The notes beneath the pieces were generated by a model. That model did no database searches. It saw only the letters and a program-made list of their open reading frames with translations, and was not told the DNA's origin. The position numbers were made by a program, and so were the translations under genes. From an uncultured Alphaproteobacteria bacterium (GTDB taxonomy: Bacteria; Pseudomonadota; Alphaproteobacteria; HIMB59), in NCBI GenBank assembly GCA_902521795.1, contig CABYSX010000002.1:62001-126000 (forward strand): a DNA stretch of 64,000 nucleotides, in the 5' to 3' direction. Shown in pieces: positions 16,461-34,467 of this stretch (position 1 is its first letter; every line of letters starts with the position of its first letter).

Positions 16461-17780
16461 TTATAACAAAGGTGACCAAGCTGGGTCACTTCCATCTCTT
16501 GGAGTGGGAATAACCCTCTCGTTGTATCCAGTTATATCGATAAAATGTATTGTTACTTCTCCTCCTGTTCCATCAAGATTTGACCTTTTTTGTCTGTGAA
16601 ATATTAAATACCTGCCATTTGGAGACCACGCTGGAGACTCCAAAGAAAAATCCCTGACTATTACTCTTTCATTATTTCCATTTGTGTCCATGACTCCTAT
16701 GTGGAAGTTACCCTGAGTTAACTTAGTAAAAGCTATCAAGTCCCCCCTAGGAGACCATACTGGATTACCATAAACACCTCTACCTTTTGAAATTCTTTTA
16801 ATATTATCTCCGTTCTTATCCATAATAAATAATTGGGGACTCCCTCCACGATCAGAGTTAAAAACAATTTTTTCTCCATTGGGAGAAAAAGAGGGAGATG
16901 TGTCAATTCCAGAGTCATTTGTCAATCTTAAGCGAGATCGAGTGTTTAAATCCATTAAATAGATCTCAGAATTTGCTGCATTATTAGGATCTGAAAAAGA
17001 CATCACTACACTTTGACTATCTGGTGAAAATCTTGGTGCGAAAGTCATCCCAGGAAAGTCTCCAACAATTTCCCTCTCACCAGTTTTAAGATTGTAAATA
17101 TAAACTCTTGGAAGATTATTTTTGTACTCCATGTAAGTTATTATTTGATTATTTGGTGCAAAACGAGGAGTTAAAACTAAATTTTTTCCATCTGTTAAAA
17201 ATTGATGACTATCCAAATGTCCATCTTGATCCATAATTGCTAATCTTTTTACTCTTTGATCTAGTGGACCAATTTCTGAAACATAAACAATTCTTGTATC
17301 AAAATAACCAGTCTCGCCTGTTATTCTTTCGTAGACAATGTCACTTACAGTATGACCAACTCTTCTTATTAAATTTTCATCAGGTATTGTGAGTTGTAAT
17401 TTTTCTATCTCTTTTCCGTTAAATACATCATAAAGTCTCATGCGCAATCTAATCCCTTTATCTGTTTTACTGACATCTGCACTTAATAAGAACTGTGCTT
17501 TGATTAGCTTCCAATCTTCAAAACGTGGGACTTTTTCAACTAAATTATCGGATTGAATATAAAGATCTTCATTTACTGTATAAAAAAGACCTGAATTTGT
17601 GAGATTATTGTTAATAATTTGCCTTAGTGTATTCCCATATCTAGCAGTGTCTGAGTCTGCACCAAATATCTGAGTTATAGCTATGGGAGTGGGTTCAACT
17701 TTTCCTTGTGCAATTGTTACCTCTAGAGCAGCGTTTGCGTTAAGTGAAAAAAACAAAATTAATAGGATTTTTTTAATCAT
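16461..17780 (-). CDS. tolB: Tol-Pal system protein TolB
   Basis: Periplasmic beta-propeller protein that binds Pal and transmits energised TolA action to the outer membrane. The N-terminal signal peptide is IKKILLILFFSLNANA. An N-terminal alpha/beta domain runs to about residue 160. At least five WD40-like PD40 blades follow, each with a variant of FSPDSQSVVMSF, WSPRGDLIAFT or WSPNGRYLIFH. The end, SDPAWSPLL, is the conserved TolB C-terminus. At 439 residues it is full length. Order tolQ-tolR-tolA-tolB-pal is standard. Confidence 0.97.
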   Translation of the reverse strand: MIKKILLILFFSLNANAALEVTIAQGKVEPTPIAITQIFGADSDTARYGNTLRQIINNNLTNSGLFYTVNEDLYIQSDNLVEKVPRFEDWKLIKAQFLLSADVSKTDKGIRLRMRLYDVFNGKEIEKLQLTIPDENLIRRVGHTVSDIVYERITGETGYFDTRIVYVSEIGPLDQRVKRLAIMDQDGHLDSHQFLTDGKNLVLTPRFAPNNQIITYMEYKNNLPRVYIYNLKTGEREIVGDFPGMTFAPRFSPDSQSVVMSFSDPNNAANSEIYLMDLNTRSRLRLTNDSGIDTSPSFSPNGEKIVFNSDRGGSPQLFIMDKNGDNIKRISKGRGVYGNPVWSPRGDLIAFTKLTQGNFHIGVMDTNGNNERVIVRDFSLESPAWSPNGRYLIFHRQKRSNLDGTGGEVTIHFIDITGYNERVIPTPRDGSDPAWSPLL

Positions 17781-17825: not shown

Positions 17826-18830
17826 TTAATCAAACATCCAGCTGAAATCAAAAGTAAAATTAATTTCTTTCCACTGTTCATATTTATCTTCAGGTAATAA
17901 AAGAGGGCTACAATCTGGATTATTCACTGCTCTCATAGCAGCTTCAGCAGCAGTTCTAAATGATGGATCATTCAATTTTTCTTTATTTACTACTTTAGAA
18001 CTTTTTACTGTTCGATCAGAGTTAACTTCAATGTAAATGACAGGTTTTATTTCTTTTAAATTAGCAACACCAACATTAAGATTTAAACAGCCATGTAATT
18101 GCTGCCTTAATAAATCAATTTCTGAAATAGTCATCGTTGGTCCAACTTTTTCTGTGAAAACTTCCTCTTGTTTGGCATCAGATGCTTCTTGTTCTTTTTT
18201 GAATTCTTTGTTCTGATTTTCTAAGTCTTTAAGAACAGTACTAACATTGAAAGTTTTCTTTACAGGCTTTTTCTTTACAACAATCTCAATATCTTTTTTG
18301 GGTTCTAGTATTTCTTGAGGTTCAGGTTTTTGTTTTAATTTAATCTCAAAATCATTTTCAATTGGCGGTGGTGTCTCCTCTTCTGGTTTTTTAATTTCAG
18401 GTTTTACTTTCTCATCAATTATAAATTCATTTGTTTTGTCTGCAGAGTTATCAATCAATACTTCTTCATTAGTATCCTGAATTATTTGATCAATTGGTTC
18501 TTGTGATTTTATCTCTTTTAATTCTGGTTCAATAGCCTTAGTTTCATTCTGCTTTGGAGCTTCTTCTTGAAATGTTGGGACAATTTCATTTATCTCCTCA
18601 ACAAATTCGGGTGCGGCTGTCTCTTCTTCAATAATGAACATTTCGATAGGTAAAATCATTGGAATATCGCTGATTTTTTTTTCAAAAGTAAAATTTATCA
18701 TCGGTATCAAAATTAAAAGATGTAATAGAAAAGAAAATATTTGGAAATAAAAATCACTTTTTTTATAACTAAAATTTTCAATGAATAGGATTAAATTTCT
18801 GAAAGGATTAAATAGTGTAATTGTAGACAA
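17826..18830 (-). CDS. tolA: TolA-like energy-transducing envelope protein
   Basis: Inner-membrane protein that spans the periplasm and couples TolQR proton flow to TolB-Pal. The single transmembrane helix (about residues 32-52) follows a positively charged start. The middle (about 70-225) is low complexity, rich in Glu, Pro and Lys, forming the extended arm. The last 100 residues form a TonB/TolA C-terminal domain with IYIEVNSDRTVKSSKVV and a Phe/Trp-rich end, FDFSWMFD. At 334 residues it is compact. Assignment rests on topology and on the adjacent tolR, whose stop directly precedes this gene. Confidence 0.88.
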   Translation of the reverse strand: MSTITLFNPFRNLILFIENFSYKKSDFYFQIFSFLLHLLILIPMINFTFEKKISDIPMILPIEMFIIEEETAAPEFVEEINEIVPTFQEEAPKQNETKAIEPELKEIKSQEPIDQIIQDTNEEVLIDNSADKTNEFIIDEKVKPEIKKPEEETPPPIENDFEIKLKQKPEPQEILEPKKDIEIVVKKKPVKKTFNVSTVLKDLENQNKEFKKEQEASDAKQEEVFTEKVGPTMTISEIDLLRQQLHGCLNLNVGVANLKEIKPVIYIEVNSDRTVKSSKVVNKEKLNDPSFRTAAEAAMRAVNNPDCSPLLLPEDKYEQWKEINFTFDFSWMFD

Positions 18831-19226
18831 CTAACTTGGTTTTTTCGTAACGAGAGCAATTTTTAAAAAACCTGATGTGTTCAGAGCACCAAGAACCTTC
18901 ATCACTTCTCCATAATTAATTGTGGTATCAGCTCTTAAAAAAATTCTTATATCAGTGTTAGAGCCAGCGATAGTTTTTACTTTTAGTATTAATTCTTCAA
19001 AAGGTATTAGTTCCTCACCTAAATAAATATCATTATTTTCATTAATTGAAATTTCTAGAGGCTCCTTTTGTGCATCTAAAGAATTAGCCTCAACTTTTGG
19101 TAAGTTTACAGGAACCCCCACTGTAAGAAGAGGGGCGGTAACCATAAATACAATTAATAAAACCAACATCACATCAACCATAGGGGTGACATTTATACTT
19201 GAAACAGGTCGATGTTTTTTTCTCAT
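18831..19226 (-). CDS. tolR: TolR (ExbD family)
   Basis: Inner-membrane stator protein that forms the proton-conducting complex with TolQ. INVTPMVDVMLVLLIVFMVTAPLL (about 11-34) is the single transmembrane helix with the essential membrane Asp (MVDVML). The periplasmic domain ends FLKIALVTKKPS, where LKIALVT matches the ExbD/TolR C-terminal strand. 131 residues, typical. The gene ends immediately before tolA and begins five bases after tolQ. Confidence 0.95.
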   Translation of the reverse strand: MRKKHRPVSSINVTPMVDVMLVLLIVFMVTAPLLTVGVPVNLPKVEANSLDAQKEPLEISINENNDIYLGEELIPFEELILKVKTIAGSNTDIRIFLRADTTINYGEVMKVLGALNTSGFLKIALVTKKPS

Positions 19227-19230
19227 ATCC

Positions 19231-19929
19231 TTATTTGACTTGGCGTGAAATTATATTTACTAAATCCTTTCCAAAACTTTCAGCTTCTGACAAATAGTTA
19301 TCAATTTTTGACGTTATAAGGTTGTAGTAGGCGGTTGAAGGAATAGCCACAAAAAGACCTAAGGCAGTCACAAATAAAGCTTCTGCAATACCTGGTGCTA
19401 CTACTGCAAGGTTAGTATTTTGAGCAATTGCTATTGCTTGAAAACTATTCATGATTCCCCAAACTGTTCCAAATAAACCTATAAACGGTGCGACAGATCC
19501 AGAAGAAGCCAAAAATGAAAGCCCCTTATTTAAATTTGTATCCTCAATAGCAATACTTAAATCAAGAGATGTGTAAAGTCTTTGAATAAAAGCAGAGTCG
19601 ATTTTTTTTTTTTGCATTCGAGATTTTTCATACTCATTCATAATATTTCTAAAAATATTTGAAAAGCTTTCTTGATCGAAATCATCAATTTGTTGGTAAA
19701 GCTCATCCAAAGAGACACCGGACCAAAAATGATTTTCAAATTTTTTGGATATTTTCTTAATTTTATTTATTAGGAGAATTTTTTGAATAATCGTCTTCCA
19801 AGATTGAATTGAAAAAATCACTAACAATATGATTACAAATTTTACGACCCAATCAGATTTGAGAAACATTCCCATCATTGAGAAATCTACAGAACCCTCA
19901 AGGGTGGCTAAGTTAACTACTTCTTCCAT
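19231..19929 (-). CDS. tolQ: TolQ (MotA/TolQ/ExbB proton channel)
   Basis: Proton-channel subunit that powers TolA. It has three transmembrane helices, at about residues 27-46, 133-155 and 165-190. The family signature is visible as SVAPFIGLFGTVWGIMNSF with VAPGIAEALFVTALGLFVAIPS, which includes the conserved channel-facing Thr and Ala-rich helix. 232 residues, standard. It starts the tol operon. The gene immediately upstream is a small nuclease-like protein instead of ybgC. Confidence 0.95.
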   Translation of the reverse strand: MEEVVNLATLEGSVDFSMMGMFLKSDWVVKFVIILLVIFSIQSWKTIIQKILLINKIKKISKKFENHFWSGVSLDELYQQIDDFDQESFSNIFRNIMNEYEKSRMQKKKIDSAFIQRLYTSLDLSIAIEDTNLNKGLSFLASSGSVAPFIGLFGTVWGIMNSFQAIAIAQNTNLAVVAPGIAEALFVTALGLFVAIPSTAYYNLITSKIDNYLSEAESFGKDLVNIISRQVK

Positions 19930-19932
19930 AAA

Positions 19933-20259
19933 TTATTCTTCTTCAATTATTTTTTTGTTTTTCAGCTCTTTAGAAACCTTATCAAAATCATCTGAATGTA
20001 CCATTATCCAAAAACCAGGTCTATTTTTTTCACATAATGCAATGACTGGGGTTTTTTTTTCCTTATCAGCAAAAGATTTTGTATCATCCCATAATTTAAT
20101 TGCCGAATGCTTGGCTCTTAACTTACACTCTATAAATAAATTATCATGAATTACGTCTGCATGAGTAACTTTTGAATTAATCCCGCTTAGAGCGTTTCTC
20201 AAACCCCCAAAAAACTTTGCAACAAGTCTCTCTCTATTCTTCCATGCTTTATCAGGCAT
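19933..20259 (-). CDS. Small PD-(D/E)XK nuclease-like protein (candidate Holliday-junction resolvase)
   Basis: A 108-residue basic protein with the layout of an Hjc-type PD-(D/E)XK nuclease: an N-terminal helix with Glu (ERLVAKFFGG, about 9-18), then THADV with the motif II Asp (about 32-36) and FIECKLR with the E-x-K catalytic pair (about 42-48), then TPVIALCEKNRPGFWIMVHSDD. Similar small nucleases occur in phages and are annotated as putative resolvases. Here it lies between yebC (8-base overlap) and tolQ, exactly where ruvC-ruvA-ruvB-ybgC are found in many proteobacteria. The role as a RuvC substitute is inference; the nuclease fold is likely. Confidence 0.7.
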   Translation of the reverse strand: MPDKAWKNRERLVAKFFGGLRNALSGINSKVTHADVIHDNLFIECKLRAKHSAIKLWDDTKSFADKEKKTPVIALCEKNRPGFWIMVHSDDFDKVSKELKNKKIIEEE

Positions 20260-20992
20260 TAGTAACCTCTAACAAACTAGAGTCAAAATCTAGATTTGAA
20301 AAGCAATTTTGAACATCATCATTATCCTCTAATTCGTCATTTAATTTGACTAGTTTTGTTAGCTCTTCTTCTTTTTCAATATTTACAGTCAAATTTGGCT
20401 TCCAAATAATATTGGCACTTTCGATTTCAAATTTTTTTTCTCGCATTATTTTCTCCAATGATGCTAGTGTCTGATAAGAACAATAAATATATGTTGTATC
20501 ATCCTCTGTGTTGTAGTCCTCTAATCCATGGTCAAGTAACTCTTCTAATGCACCGTCATCAATTTCTTTTTTTACTTGTATTTCTCCGACTTTATTAAAA
20601 TTAAAACTTACACTTCCTGTCTCGCCTAAATTTCCTCCATTTTTAGAAAAAATAGATCTTATCTCAGAGGCTGTTCTATTTTTATTATCTGTTAAAGCCT
20701 CAACTATAAAAGCTGTTCCAAAAGGACCATACCCTTCGTAGCGTACTTCTGAGTAATCCGCAGTATCAGTATTATTTTTATTAATTGCTCTATCTACATT
20801 GTCCTTAGGCATGTTCACACTTCGAGCATTAGTCATAGCTAGTCTTAATCTTGGATTAGACTCTGGGTCTGTTCCTCCTATTTTGACAGCTATTTGAATT
20901 TCTCTTCCTATTTTTGCAAATTGTTTTGCTCTTTTTTTATCCTGAGCACCCTTACGATATTGGATATTTTTAAATTTGGAATGCCCTGCCAT
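20252..20992 (-). CDS. yebC: YebC/PmpR-family protein
   Basis: Member of the widespread YebC family, described as a transcriptional regulator in some bacteria and, for YebC2-type members, as a translation factor that helps ribosomes through proline-rich stretches. The N-terminus MAGHSKFKNIQYRKGAQDKKR is invariant in the family. RLRLAMTNARSVNMPKDNVDRAI (about 47-69) and RYEGYGPFGTAFIVEALTDN follow. At 246 residues it is full length. It follows the phosphoesterase gene after three bases and overlaps the small nuclease gene. Confidence 0.95.
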   Translation of the reverse strand: MAGHSKFKNIQYRKGAQDKKRAKQFAKIGREIQIAVKIGGTDPESNPRLRLAMTNARSVNMPKDNVDRAINKNNTDTADYSEVRYEGYGPFGTAFIVEALTDNKNRTASEIRSIFSKNGGNLGETGSVSFNFNKVGEIQVKKEIDDGALEELLDHGLEDYNTEDDTTYIYCSYQTLASLEKIMREKKFEIESANIIWKPNLTVNIEKEEELTKLVKLNDELEDNDDVQNCFSNLDFDSSLLEVTNA

Positions 20993-20995
20993 GAT

Positions 20996-21811
20996 CTAAG
21001 ATAATAAATTACTATCCAAAACACCACCTATTTGAATAGATTGAATGGAATTTTTCTTTTCTTCATCAGTAGTTATTACTGCTCCTGAAATAGTTGCAAT
21101 TCCTTCAGCTGGTTCAAGCCTATGCGTATTAGATCCAGTTCTCATTCTTTTAATTGCATTTTCTTTTTTCATACCAATAACAGAATTATAATCACCTGTC
21201 ATGCCAATATCAGTTTGAAAACAAGTACCCTTTTCCAATACTCTTGCGTCTGAAGTTGGGATATGAACATGCGTTCCATATATAGCAGTAAATTTTCCAT
21301 CATAATTTTGAGCGATACCATTTTTTTCAGAAGTAACCTCCGCGTGGACCTCTAAAAATGAAAAGTCAATATTGTGGTCATTAATTATAGATAAGAGCTG
21401 CGTGTCAATAGAATTAAATGGATTATCTAAAGGAAGGTCGATAAATGTTTGACCATGAATTTGGCTTACTAATATTCTATTACCATTTTCATGAGTAAAA
21501 ATTTTATATCCTTTACCTGGTGAGCCAGCTTCAAAATTCAAAGGTCTTATAATACTATGATTTGGATTACTCTCCATATAGTCAATGATCTCTTTTTGTT
21601 TCCAAGCATGATTTCCTAGAGTAATAGCATCAGCTCCCCAGCTTATAAGATCCTCATATATTTTTCCTGTAAGCCCGTAACCACCTGCTGAATTTTCAGC
21701 ATTCACAATTGTAAAATCAATGTTAAATTGTTTTTGTATTTTTTTTAAATTTTCTTTAAGAGCTTTTCTTCCTGATCTTCCAACAACATCTCCTATAACT
21801 AAAAAATTCAT
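20996..21811 (-). CDS. YmdB-like (TIGR00282) metallophosphoesterase
   Basis: Calcineurin-like phosphoesterase of the family whose Bacillus member YmdB hydrolyses 2',3'-cyclic nucleotides. The start is placed at MNFLVIGDVV; that ATG overlaps the fthC stop as ATGA, and the nine extra codons in the track have no family support. Metal-binding segments are IGDVVGRSGRK (about 5-15), VNAENSAGGYGLT (about 37), TLGNHAWKQKE (about 64) and YGTHVHIPTSD (about 175). About 271 residues, full length. The physiological role here is unknown. Confidence 0.9.
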   Translation of the reverse strand: MNFLVIGDVVGRSGRKALKENLKKIQKQFNIDFTIVNAENSAGGYGLTGKIYEDLISWGADAITLGNHAWKQKEIIDYMESNPNHSIIRPLNFEAGSPGKGYKIFTHENGNRILVSQIHGQTFIDLPLDNPFNSIDTQLLSIINDHNIDFSFLEVHAEVTSEKNGIAQNYDGKFTAIYGTHVHIPTSDARVLEKGTCFQTDIGMTGDYNSVIGMKKENAIKRMRTGSNTHRLEPAEGIATISGAVITTDEEKKNSIQSIQIGGVLDSNLLS

Positions 21812-22374
21812 AAGGAATAGACTCTCTGCTCTGAACAAATGTAATCAACTTTTTGGTCAAAACTTTCTTGAAAATTAAAGTTAGTTTTTTGAATTTCAAA
21901 GGCAGCTAAAATAGTTTTTAAATTTCCTTTTTTTTTTAATTCTTCAATTGTTCTGTCAAAAAAACCTCCACCATAACCTACTCTATAACCTAGTTCGTTG
22001 AATGCGGAACAAGATGCAATAATTATATCAGGATTTAAAGCCACTTCACCGGTAGGTTCCATTATTCCACCAAAACCTTTTTCTAAACTTGGATTGTGAG
22101 GGTTATATTCAAAGTACTTTAAAGCAGTTCCTTTTGATATTACTCGTGGAAGCAAGCATGTGATATTTTTATTTATTAAATCATTTGATATCCTCAATAC
22201 ATCTACTTCATTTTTATATGGATAAAACAAACCAACAGATTTTTGTGGATTAATTTTTTCTATTATTTCTAAAATTTTTGAATTTATCATACTAGAATAA
22301 GTGTCTAAGTCCGAAATACTAAGTTTCATTCTTAGGTCAAGGTGATAATTACGTATTTGTTTTTTATTCAACAA
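21808..22374 (-). CDS. fthC: 5-formyltetrahydrofolate cyclo-ligase
   Basis: Converts 5-formyl-THF to 5,10-methenyl-THF with ATP, recycling a dead-end folate. The substrate and ATP loops are visible as the N-terminal basic helix (KKQIRNYHLDLRMKL), VGLFYPYKNEVDV (about 46) and GYRVGYGGGFFDRTIEEL (about 131-148). At 188 residues it is typical. The fthC-after-zapA arrangement is shared with many proteobacteria. In gammaproteobacteria the 6S RNA gene sits in this gap, but here zapA and fthC overlap by 11 bases, leaving no room. Confidence 0.92.
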   Translation of the reverse strand: MLNKKQIRNYHLDLRMKLSISDLDTYSSMINSKILEIIEKINPQKSVGLFYPYKNEVDVLRISNDLINKNITCLLPRVISKGTALKYFEYNPHNPSLEKGFGGIMEPTGEVALNPDIIIASCSAFNELGYRVGYGGGFFDRTIEELKKKGNLKTILAAFEIQKTNFNFQESFDQKVDYICSEQRVYSL

Positions 22375-31590: not shown

Positions 31591-32876
31591 TGTACTCTTG
31601 ATGTATCCGCATTATTAAACCCCTTTAGATCAATACCTAACTTATTACAAACTTTTATAGCTGATTGAATACCATCTTCATGAAACCCATAACCTAGATA
31701 ACTGCCTACATAGTATGATTTATCATGGCCTTGTATGTATGAAATATTTTTTTGGGCATTTAAAGTTTTTTGTGAAAATATTGGATGTTCATAAAGTGTC
31801 TGATAATGGTTATCTTTTTGTTCCTGATTTAATGAAACAAAAAAATTATCTCCTGTATTAAGAGGTTGTAGTTTATTCATCCAATAACTGAGTGTGCATT
31901 TATTATTCATATTGGTATGAAAATTCCAACTTGACCAAGCTTTTAAGTGAGCAGGCATTAAAGAGGTATTTTGATGTAATTGAGCTAAATTTTTTTGGAA
32001 ATTAAATTCTTTCAAAATCTCATACTCTTTTTGATGAATTTTGTCTAAAAGAGGAAAAAAATGGTTTGGGGGACAAGCAAATATTACAATATCAAAAATA
32101 GATTTTTTTCCTTCAAAAAAAATTTCAACATTATTTGTCCTTGAGATTTTTTGAATCCTACAAGATTTTTTTATAGTAAATTTTGAAGATCTGATAAGAG
32201 ATTTAATATATTGCTTAGATCCATTTTTTATAGTCTTCCATTGTGGTCTATTAATAAAATTAAATAGTTTATGATTTTGAAAAAAATTAATAATACTTTT
32301 TAATGGTTGATTAAGAGAGTCCTGATCAGGAGTTGACCAAATACTTGAAATTAAAGGAAGTAAATGGAAATTAATAAATTCATCAGAGTAATTTTTTGTT
32401 TTAAGAAAATTTCTAATAGAAATATCTGAAACTATATTTTTCTTTTGAAAAGTTTTATAGAAAATAATTATGTCTTTTAGCATTTTATAAAATTTTAAAT
32501 TATAAAAATTTTTACTATCTGCAAACAATGCACTTAAGCTTCCCCCTCCATATTCAAAATTGCTTTCCTCATTAAAGAAACTAAAAGACATATTGCTATT
32601 TACTGTTTCAACATTTAGACAATCAAAAAATTTAGTTAGATTTGGATATGTTAACTCATTATAAACAATAAAACCTGTATCTATAGAGATAGTATTTCCA
32701 GAATTATCTTTAACTTCTCTTGTATTAGCATGACCCCCTAAATAATCATTTTTTTCAAAAAGTGTGACGTCAAATTTATCTTGTAAAAAATATGCTGATG
32801 ATAGCCCTGCTATACCCGATCCAATTATAGCTACTTTTTGTTTCAAATTATGATTTAGTTTGTTGGTAAGCCTCAA
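31581..32876 (-). CDS. FAD-dependent amine-oxidase-type oxidoreductase
   Basis: Flavoprotein of the amine oxidase/phytoene desaturase fold. The dinucleotide-binding VAIIGSGIAGLSSAYFL (about 15-31) is followed by LGGHANTREV with the second FAD contact, DTGFIVYNELTYPNL, and a C-terminal SYLGYGFHEDGIQSAI that closes the FAD site. 431 residues. It overlaps the photolyase end by 29 bases and DUF1365 by 10. Family members in this neighbourhood are thought to act on modified membrane fatty acids; the substrate is not established from the sequence. Confidence 0.82.
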   Translation of the reverse strand: MRLTNKLNHNLKQKVAIIGSGIAGLSSAYFLQDKFDVTLFEKNDYLGGHANTREVKDNSGNTISIDTGFIVYNELTYPNLTKFFDCLNVETVNSNMSFSFFNEESNFEYGGGSLSALFADSKNFYNLKFYKMLKDIIIFYKTFQKKNIVSDISIRNFLKTKNYSDEFINFHLLPLISSIWSTPDQDSLNQPLKSIINFFQNHKLFNFINRPQWKTIKNGSKQYIKSLIRSSKFTIKKSCRIQKISRTNNVEIFFEGKKSIFDIVIFACPPNHFFPLLDKIHQKEYEILKEFNFQKNLAQLHQNTSLMPAHLKAWSSWNFHTNMNNKCTLSYWMNKLQPLNTGDNFFVSLNQEQKDNHYQTLYEHPIFSQKTLNAQKNISYIQGHDKSYYVGSYLGYGFHEDGIQSAIKVCNKLGIDLKGFNNADTSRVQWN

Positions 32877-34254
32877 GAGCTCTGTTTCGAGAGTCTTTTA
32901 GATCTACAATAGGGTTAAAATATTTTTTATCTTTGATTAAATTTCTTAATAAATTTTTGTCTAAATACGGCTCAAATATTGTCTTTGTAGAATTAAAAAT
33001 TTTTAATTGAGGAATATATTTGAGAATAAACTGAGCCTGAGGGTCAAACTTTTCAGATTGAAGCACTGGGTTAAAGACTCGAAAATATGGCGAAGCATCT
33101 GCCCCACAACCTGCGATCCATTGCCATCCAGCAGCATTACTAGCCTCATCATAATCTAATAAACTTTTATGAAAGTAATTTTCACCCAATGTCCAGTTTA
33201 ACAATAAATTTTTAACTAAAAAACTTCCTACTACCATTCTTAGTCTATTGTGCATCCAACCTTCTTCATAGATTTGTTTCATCGCAGCGTCGACTAGTGG
33301 AATACCTGTTTCTCCCTTAGTCCAACTAGTAAAATCCTTTTTACTGTTTCTCCATGGAAATTTTTTAAATTTTGGATTTATGGGTTTATTGGATAAATCT
33401 TCCGAGTAATACAATAAAGAATAAGAGAACTCTCTCCAACCAATCTCTGAAAGATATGTATTAATTGAATTATTCATTTTTTTTGAGTCTTGGATCTTTT
33501 CTATTATTATACGTGGAGAGATTTCTCCAAATCTTAAATGAGGTGATATTCTCGAAGTTTGATCTAAGTCTGGTCTATTTCTATTAACCTCATATTTATC
33601 AATATCAGATGAGATGTAAGTATTAATTTTTTTTAGAGCCGCGTCTTCTCCTGGACTCCAGTGCTTATCAAACTTCTCGTACCAATTTTTGTTGTCAAAA
33701 AAGCTAAGATCAGTTTTTTGATTGTGTTTTAAAGGTTTTATAAATATTTTTTTTTTATAACTAAATTTCTTATTTAAATAAACTTTATAAGCTGCTCTCC
33801 AGAAAGGTGTGAAGACTTTAAAATATTGCCCTGAATTGTTTTGTACTTCCCAAGGCTCATTTAATAAATGTGAATTAAAAGTGTCGACTTGAATACTGCT
33901 ATCTTTAAAAAATTTTTTAATTTCAGTGTCTCGTCTAATCGATTGTTGAGAATAAAGCCTATTCCAAATTATAGATGTAATTTTATATTTTTTAACTAAA
34001 TCAGAGATATTTTTTTTTGCCTCTCCGTTAAGTATTATTAACTTTATATTGAAGGTCTGATCTAATTTTTTAGCATGTAATCTAAGAGTTTTTTCAAGCC
34101 ACCAGTGCCCAGCATCTCCAGTAGCTTTTTTTTCTATGTCATCATATATATATACTAGAAGAGCTTCAGATTTTTGGTTTGAAATAAATTCAAGGCATGG
34201 ATTATCGGTGATCCTAAAGTCTCTTCTCAGCCAGTATAAAGTTTTATGTTCGAT
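32848..34254 (-). CDS. phrB: Cryptochrome/deoxyribodipyrimidine photolyase without canonical start codon
   Basis: The track lists only the C-terminal 209 residues (from the Met at 33477), but the same frame is open without a stop from 34272 to 32848. The upstream part reads as the photolyase antenna domain: KTLYWLRRDFRITDNP, LVYIYDDIE, GDAGHWWLEKTLRLH, then SPGEDAALKKI, RPDLDQTSRISPHLRFGEISP. The FAD domain follows with WREFSYSLLYY, AAMKQIYEEGWMHNRLRM and DASPYFRVFNP. Total about 469 residues, the usual length. No ATG, GTG or TTG occurs in frame before 33477. An ATC at 34252-34254 or CTG at 34228-34230 is closest to the family start. Light-driven repair of pyrimidine dimers is expected if it is expressed. 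Confidence 0.75.
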   Translation of the reverse strand: MEHKTLYWLRRDFRITDNPCLEFISNQKSEALLVYIYDDIEKKATGDAGHWWLEKTLRLHAKKLDQTFNIKLIILNGEAKKNISDLVKKYKITSIIWNRLYSQQSIRRDTEIKKFFKDSSIQVDTFNSHLLNEPWEVQNNSGQYFKVFTPFWRAAYKVYLNKKFSYKKKIFIKPLKHNQKTDLSFFDNKNWYEKFDKHWSPGEDAALKKINTYISSDIDKYEVNRNRPDLDQTSRISPHLRFGEISPRIIIEKIQDSKKMNNSINTYLSEIGWREFSYSLLYYSEDLSNKPINPKFKKFPWRNSKKDFTSWTKGETGIPLVDAAMKQIYEEGWMHNRLRMVVGSFLVKNLLLNWTLGENYFHKSLLDYDEASNAAGWQWIAGCGADASPYFRVFNPVLQSEKFDPQAQFILKYIPQLKIFNSTKTIFEPYLDKNLLRNLIKDKKYFNPIVDLKDSRNRALEAYQQTKS

Positions 34255-34272
34255 AGTTAGAGAATAACAAAA

Positions 34273-34467
34273 TTATTTACTATGAGGAGGCATTTTCTTT
34301 TCAACAAACCAAACATGTTGTTTCAAGACAGGGTCATACTTTCTTTGACGAAGTTTGTCAGAAACTTTTAAACCCTTTGTGGGCTTACGTACAATATATT
34401 TTGTACCAGTTTCTGGTTTTTCTTCAGGTATCAACTGTTTTAACTGATAAGTGGACTTTTTAGCCAT
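34273..34467 (-). CDS. rpmG: 50S ribosomal protein bL33 (divergent)
   Basis: Small basic protein of 64 residues. MAKKSTYQLK starts like bL33, TGTKYIVRKPTKG corresponds to TGFFYVTKKN of the family, and KLRQRKYDPVLKQHVWFVEKK (split) matches the KYDPVxxKHVxFxE ending. It has about nine more residues than most bL33 proteins and a PPHSK tail. The gene lies just upstream of the photolyase frame on the same strand. A promoter candidate ends six bases before the ATG and there is no visible ribosome-binding site. Confidence 0.8.
   Translation of the reverse strand: MAKKSTYQLKQLIPEEKPETGTKYIVRKPTKGLKVSDKLRQRKYDPVLKQHVWFVEKKMPPHSK

Follow-up and report, generated by a model that had tools for sequence, protein, structure and literature searches.

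The stretch between yebC and tolQ in the HIMB59 order of Alphaproteobacteria raises the question of how Holliday junctions are resolved when the position of ruvC, ruvA and ruvB is held by another gene. The window analysed here is 64,000 nucleotides of contig CABYSX010000002.1 from a genome of the HIMB59/AEGEAN-169 group (G000; 1.195 Mb in 41 contigs, 84.8% complete). Most of 20 loci from RuvC-positive alphaproteobacteria showed, in whole or in large part, the gene order 5-formyltetrahydrofolate cyclo-ligase (5-FCL), ymdB, yebC, ruvC, ruvA, ruvB, (ybgC), tolQ, tolR and tolB. The arrangement with ruvC-ruvA-ruvB between yebC and tolQ, presumed ancestral, is widespread in RuvC-positive alphaproteobacteria, as the original prediction had held. 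The window retains this context on the minus strand, with 5-FCL (21808-22374), ymdB (20996-21838) and yebC (20252-20992; TIGR01033 in relatives) upstream, and tolQ (19231-19929), tolR (18831-19226), tolA (17826-18830; assigned by its position between tolR and tolB), tolB (16461-17780) and pal downstream. The slot itself contains a single open reading frame for 108 amino acids (19933-20259, minus strand). Its ATG lies within an 8-nt overlap with the 3' end of yebC, its stop codon is 3 nt before the tolQ ATG (19929), and its GC content (32%) is the same as that of both neighbours. The frame is real and placed as earlier described, and both its coordinates and the loci fetched from relatives bear out a 108-residue protein standing alone between yebC and tolQ.

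Profile searches with the window protein identified the phage family phrog_2002 (E 4.8e-8, residues 3-103 aligned to 16-121 of 130), which is labelled 'Holliday junction resolvase', a label that is itself assigned by homology. All 31 aligned homologues matched the same family. Four residues were invariant in 31/31 aligned sequences, namely Glu10 in the ER motif of helix 1 (codon 20230-20232, minus strand, as are the others), Asp35, the presumed metal-binding Asp of the core (20155-20157), and Glu44 and Lys46 of the E-x-K motif (20128-20130 and 20122-20124), which lie on strand 41-47 of the predicted structure. This is the E-D-ExK pattern of a PD-(D/E)XK nuclease. An AlphaFold2 model, built from an alignment of the window and fetched-locus sequences with phage database rows left out, reached a pLDDT of 85.5. 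When this model was compared with solved structures using Foldseek, archaeal Hjc chains (2wiz, 2wj0, 2wcw, 1gef) ranked top with a probability of ~1.0, a TM-score of ~0.5 and a modest best E-value of 6e-3; phage resolvases were among the matches to viral models. The motifs had been read as fitting an Hjc- or phage-type resolvase, and the family match, the invariant residues and the nearest structures all agree with that reading; the matched family is a resolvase family that retains its nuclease residues. No family was assigned to the window protein by Pfam, NCBIfam or PADLOC. The RuvC and RecU profiles of Pfam and NCBIfam gave no match, the Pfam Hjc profile (PF01870) was matched by 1/31 homologues at E 0.13 and not by the window protein, and PDDEXK_15 (PF24608) was approached by only 2/31 homologues (best E 0.021, short of the cut-off). 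Searching PDB sequences, whether with the window protein alone or with a profile of its family, returned nothing meaningful. Because the Hjc profile did not match despite the Hjc-like top structures, we file the protein with the phage family, and the model suggests that it probably works like Hjc.

We also examined how widely the gene is conserved. Orthologues were present in 53 of 60 relatives, covering six genera and two families, and in 17/17 of those at least 90% complete, which shows that the frame is not a chance open reading frame. A profile of the family matched 6 of 387 sampled alphaproteobacteria, every one of them in the HIMB59 order. Among 61 fetched bacterial loci, yebC was directly upstream in all 61 and tolQ directly downstream in 59; of the two exceptions, one has tolQ starting at the nuclease stop codon and was removed only by a distance filter, and the other lies on a single-cell contig that looks chimeric. 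In two further metagenome-assembled genomes (MAGs; L062, and L063 from MarineAlpha6) the slot likewise holds a copy, with 60-62% identity. The dN/dS of the gene against congeneric orthologues was about 0.02-0.09, and the gene is under strong purifying selection. It is a single-copy, order-wide and strongly constrained core gene. The single-cell contig CACKTS010000014.1 (L043 and L057) has the nuclease region close to each of its ends; one of the two copies lacks tolQ and has a longer open reading frame, and the contig is probably an amplification chimera.

Searches for the Ruv proteins supported the prediction that the canonical system had been lost. RuvC gave no match in the window genome or in any of the 60 relatives of the HIMB59 order, and RuvB exceeded its curated cut-off of 299 bits in none of these 60, the highest score being 35 bits. 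Weak RuvB matches were seen in all relatives and were judged, from frame lengths and partial matches, to be other AAA+ ATPases. As a positive comparison, RuvC was detected in 361 of 387 sampled alphaproteobacteria, and the RuvB profile detected its positive controls. A HIMB59-group genome assembled as one contig (G030; 1,410,127 bp) was searched in its entirety using profiles built from alphaproteobacterial RuvA, RuvB, RuvC and YbgC. RuvA, for which the search covered G030 alone, and RuvC were not found in this genome, and RuvB gave only weak ATPase matches. Loss had been proposed for ruvC, ruvA, ruvB and ybgC together; the three ruv genes are gone, but ybgC has moved and is clearly present away from the slot in G030 (254671-255057). 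The same genome encodes RecG, a RecA that is 65% identical to the E. coli protein, and a weak homologue of YqgF; RadA, RusA and both of the other slot-resolvase families described below were not found in it. Taken together, RuvABC is lost in the HIMB59 order and the ruvCAB position is occupied by the stand-alone nuclease. A RuvC match was also absent from eight other alphaproteobacteria (G173, G223, G237, G261, G312, G401, G423 and G282), several of which were also without RuvB over the cut-off.

Relatives of the nuclease are encoded on more than 80 viral contigs, with up to 76% identity. In 55 of 80 fetched phage loci the gene lay directly before terL, and in 38 of 80 it followed the small terminase gene; no terminase was found near the nuclease in the fetched bacterial loci. 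Since these close homologues adjoin terminase genes on marine phage contigs, the gene is of phage type and was probably captured from a phage. Phylogenetic trees placed the bacterial copies among phage copies. A single capture and several captures are both compatible with the trees, since three changes between bacterial and phage labels are needed but the AU test permits one clade for all bacterial copies (P = 0.31); a tree that unites the HIMB59-order copies in a single clade also fits the data. In Bacteroides phage BS162P1 (L088:3323-4315, plus strand), the nuclease domain forms the C-terminal part of a 330-residue open reading frame annotated as an I-HmuI-like DNA endonuclease.

The same slot was then compared in other alphaproteobacteria that lack a RuvC match in the search of 387 genomes. 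In one group (family f84; G141, G232, G307, G371 and G432), the gene after yebC encodes a protein of 164-165 residues (L178:974-1468, minus; L181:2233-2724, plus; L345:2351-2845, plus) and is followed by ybgC and/or tolQ. The three proteins scanned matched the phage Holliday-junction resolvase family phrog_1770 (E about 1e-36), and the family profile of this phage RuvC-like resolvase matched the plant chloroplast resolvase MOC1 (E 6e-19). Weaker relatives occur in five RuvC-positive genomes, presumably as prophage copies. This group appears to be SAR11; a protein of G307 matched PDB 3tfh (E 7e-200), the Pelagibacter DMSP demethylase, and G432 is a single contig of 1,160,202 bp. In a further group (family f40; G097, G202, G349 and G410), the gene after yebC encodes a candidate resolvase of 168-170 residues of the PDDEXK_15/phrog_244 type (two were scanned, giving E-values of about 2e-21 and 1e-13; L183:1745-2248, plus; L182:948-1451, minus; L347:2504-3007, plus; L348:1500-2009, minus). 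It is followed by tilS or ybgC-tilS, was found in no RuvC-positive genome of the sample and gave a poor structure model (pLDDT 66). G349, G371, G410 and G432 count as lacking RuvC because they are not listed among the RuvC positives, and RuvB was below the cut-off in all six genomes of the two groups tested.

The f84 protein proved unrelated to the window protein in the comparison made. When the profiles of the HIMB59 and f40 families were compared, the score was not significant, with the catalytic residues falling in register, and on this comparison the two would share the nuclease core at most. It is likely that the entire RuvABC system was dropped independently in three or more lineages (HIMB59, what appears to be SAR11, and the f40 group), and that each filled the vacated site with its own kind of stand-alone phage resolvase. 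The prediction made for the HIMB59 locus is supported, and the pattern reaches further than was proposed, to f84 and f40; most likely it reflects repeated in-place displacement of RuvABC by stand-alone phage-type resolvases in streamlined alphaproteobacteria.

We consider it highly probable that in the HIMB59 order the whole of RuvABC has given way to the 108-residue protein, acting alone as a Holliday-junction resolvase of the phage PD-(D/E)XK type, with junction cleavage as its predicted activity. In the mechanism we propose, a small, probably dimeric, Hjc-like nuclease would bind the four-way junctions that RecA generates and cleave a pair of opposing strands at its metal-dependent E/D/ExK centre, without a RuvAB motor, and the retained RecG would supply branch migration. 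The gene would have been captured from phages that use the nuclease to debranch DNA before packaging. Since the gene sits where ruvCAB used to be, its co-transcription with yebC and tol-pal has probably been preserved. The RuvC protein of phage bIL67 rescues an E. coli ruvABC deletion (PMC3864405), and a stand-alone phage resolvase can therefore suffice. By analogy with phage enzymes of this sort, which are often less junction-specific, other branched substrates are possible.

The precision of the exchange bears on whether the nuclease might instead serve another purpose. A phage-derived nuclease could have been kept for defence, to debranch or degrade invading DNA, or as a general flap endonuclease, with its place in the ruv slot incidental; the phage homologues adjoin terminase genes and may serve packaging, and resolvases from phages show greater promiscuity than those of cells (PMC3864405). 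Such a role is unlikely for a constrained, order-wide, single-copy core gene that has no PADLOC defence match and exactly replaces ruvCAB, in a slot that holds other resolvase families in two lineages without RuvC or RuvB. Junctions might also be resolved or dissolved without the 108-residue protein, through RecG-driven reversal or a YqgF-type nuclease. Both RecG and the weak YqgF homologue are encoded in G030, and Rocha et al. name YqgF as a possible stand-in whose activity is not shown (PMC1193525). However, YqgF co-occurs with RuvC or RecU in most genomes (PMC1193525) and therefore leaves the loss of RuvABC unexplained; nor does this route account for a resolvase-family protein being so strictly conserved in the slot, and we regard it as quite improbable. 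That RuvABC is present and was missed, through an incomplete window assembly or very divergent Ruv proteins, draws on the incompleteness of G000. This is extremely unlikely, since G030 on its single contig contradicts it within the reach of the profiles, a further 16 nearly complete relatives gave no RuvC match and no RuvB match over the cut-off, and the same profiles recover RuvC in most alphaproteobacteria and RuvB in the positive controls.

Comparison with known systems places the predicted stand-alone resolvase of HIMB59 closest to the phage proteins of PHROG 2002, from marine phage contigs and Bacteroides phage BS162P1, with which it shares the sequence family and the E-D-ExK core (the highest identity being to marine phage). 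Unlike these terminase-adjacent genes, the HIMB59 copy is a fixed chromosomal core gene in the ruvCAB slot. Archaeal Hjc (2wcw, 1gef) provides the closest solved structures, is of the same size class and likewise stands alone without RuvAB; it differs in sequence (about 20% identity, with no match of the window protein to the Pfam Hjc profile), and the TM-score reaches only ~0.5. RuvC shares the genomic slot and the presumed task but has an unrelated, RNase H-like fold, and the window protein is without RuvA or RuvB partners. RecU of Firmicutes is also a PD-(D/E)XK resolvase standing in for RuvC; it works with RuvAB, although its gene rarely adjoins the RuvAB genes (PMC1193525), whereas RuvAB is also lost in HIMB59. 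The MOC1/phage RuvC-like resolvases of the SAR11-type slot occupy the same locus, again with no RuvC and no RuvB, and belong to an unrelated sequence family.

In a survey of 117 bacteria, RuvA and RuvB always co-occurred and were nearly ubiquitous, the only RecA-bearing bacteria without RuvAB were Wigglesworthia and Aquifex, which both have RecG, and prophage proteins were suggested as possible providers of resolution (Rocha et al., PMC1193525). We found no earlier report of RuvABC replacement by a phage-type resolvase in the open-licence literature, and two papers on AEGEAN-169/HIMB59 (PMC10308909, PMC10734472) make no mention of Ruv or Holliday junctions. Here a whole free-living order, and apparently SAR11 too, is without RuvABC and carries phage-type resolvases instead, a case of phage genes supplanting core repair machinery at its own locus. 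If this is true, some of the ocean's most abundant cells perform homologous recombination without RuvABC. They would offer a natural experiment on which parts of RuvABC are dispensable when recombination is kept, and the HIMB59/AEGEAN-169 protein provides an enzyme, from a bacterium abundant in the ocean, that can be tested directly.

Elsewhere in the window, the frame of a photolyase gene (32848-34275, minus strand) is open well upstream of its first ATG, GTG or TTG. The expected N-terminus (KTLYWLRRDF) is preceded by no ordinary start codon, only by codons such as ATC.
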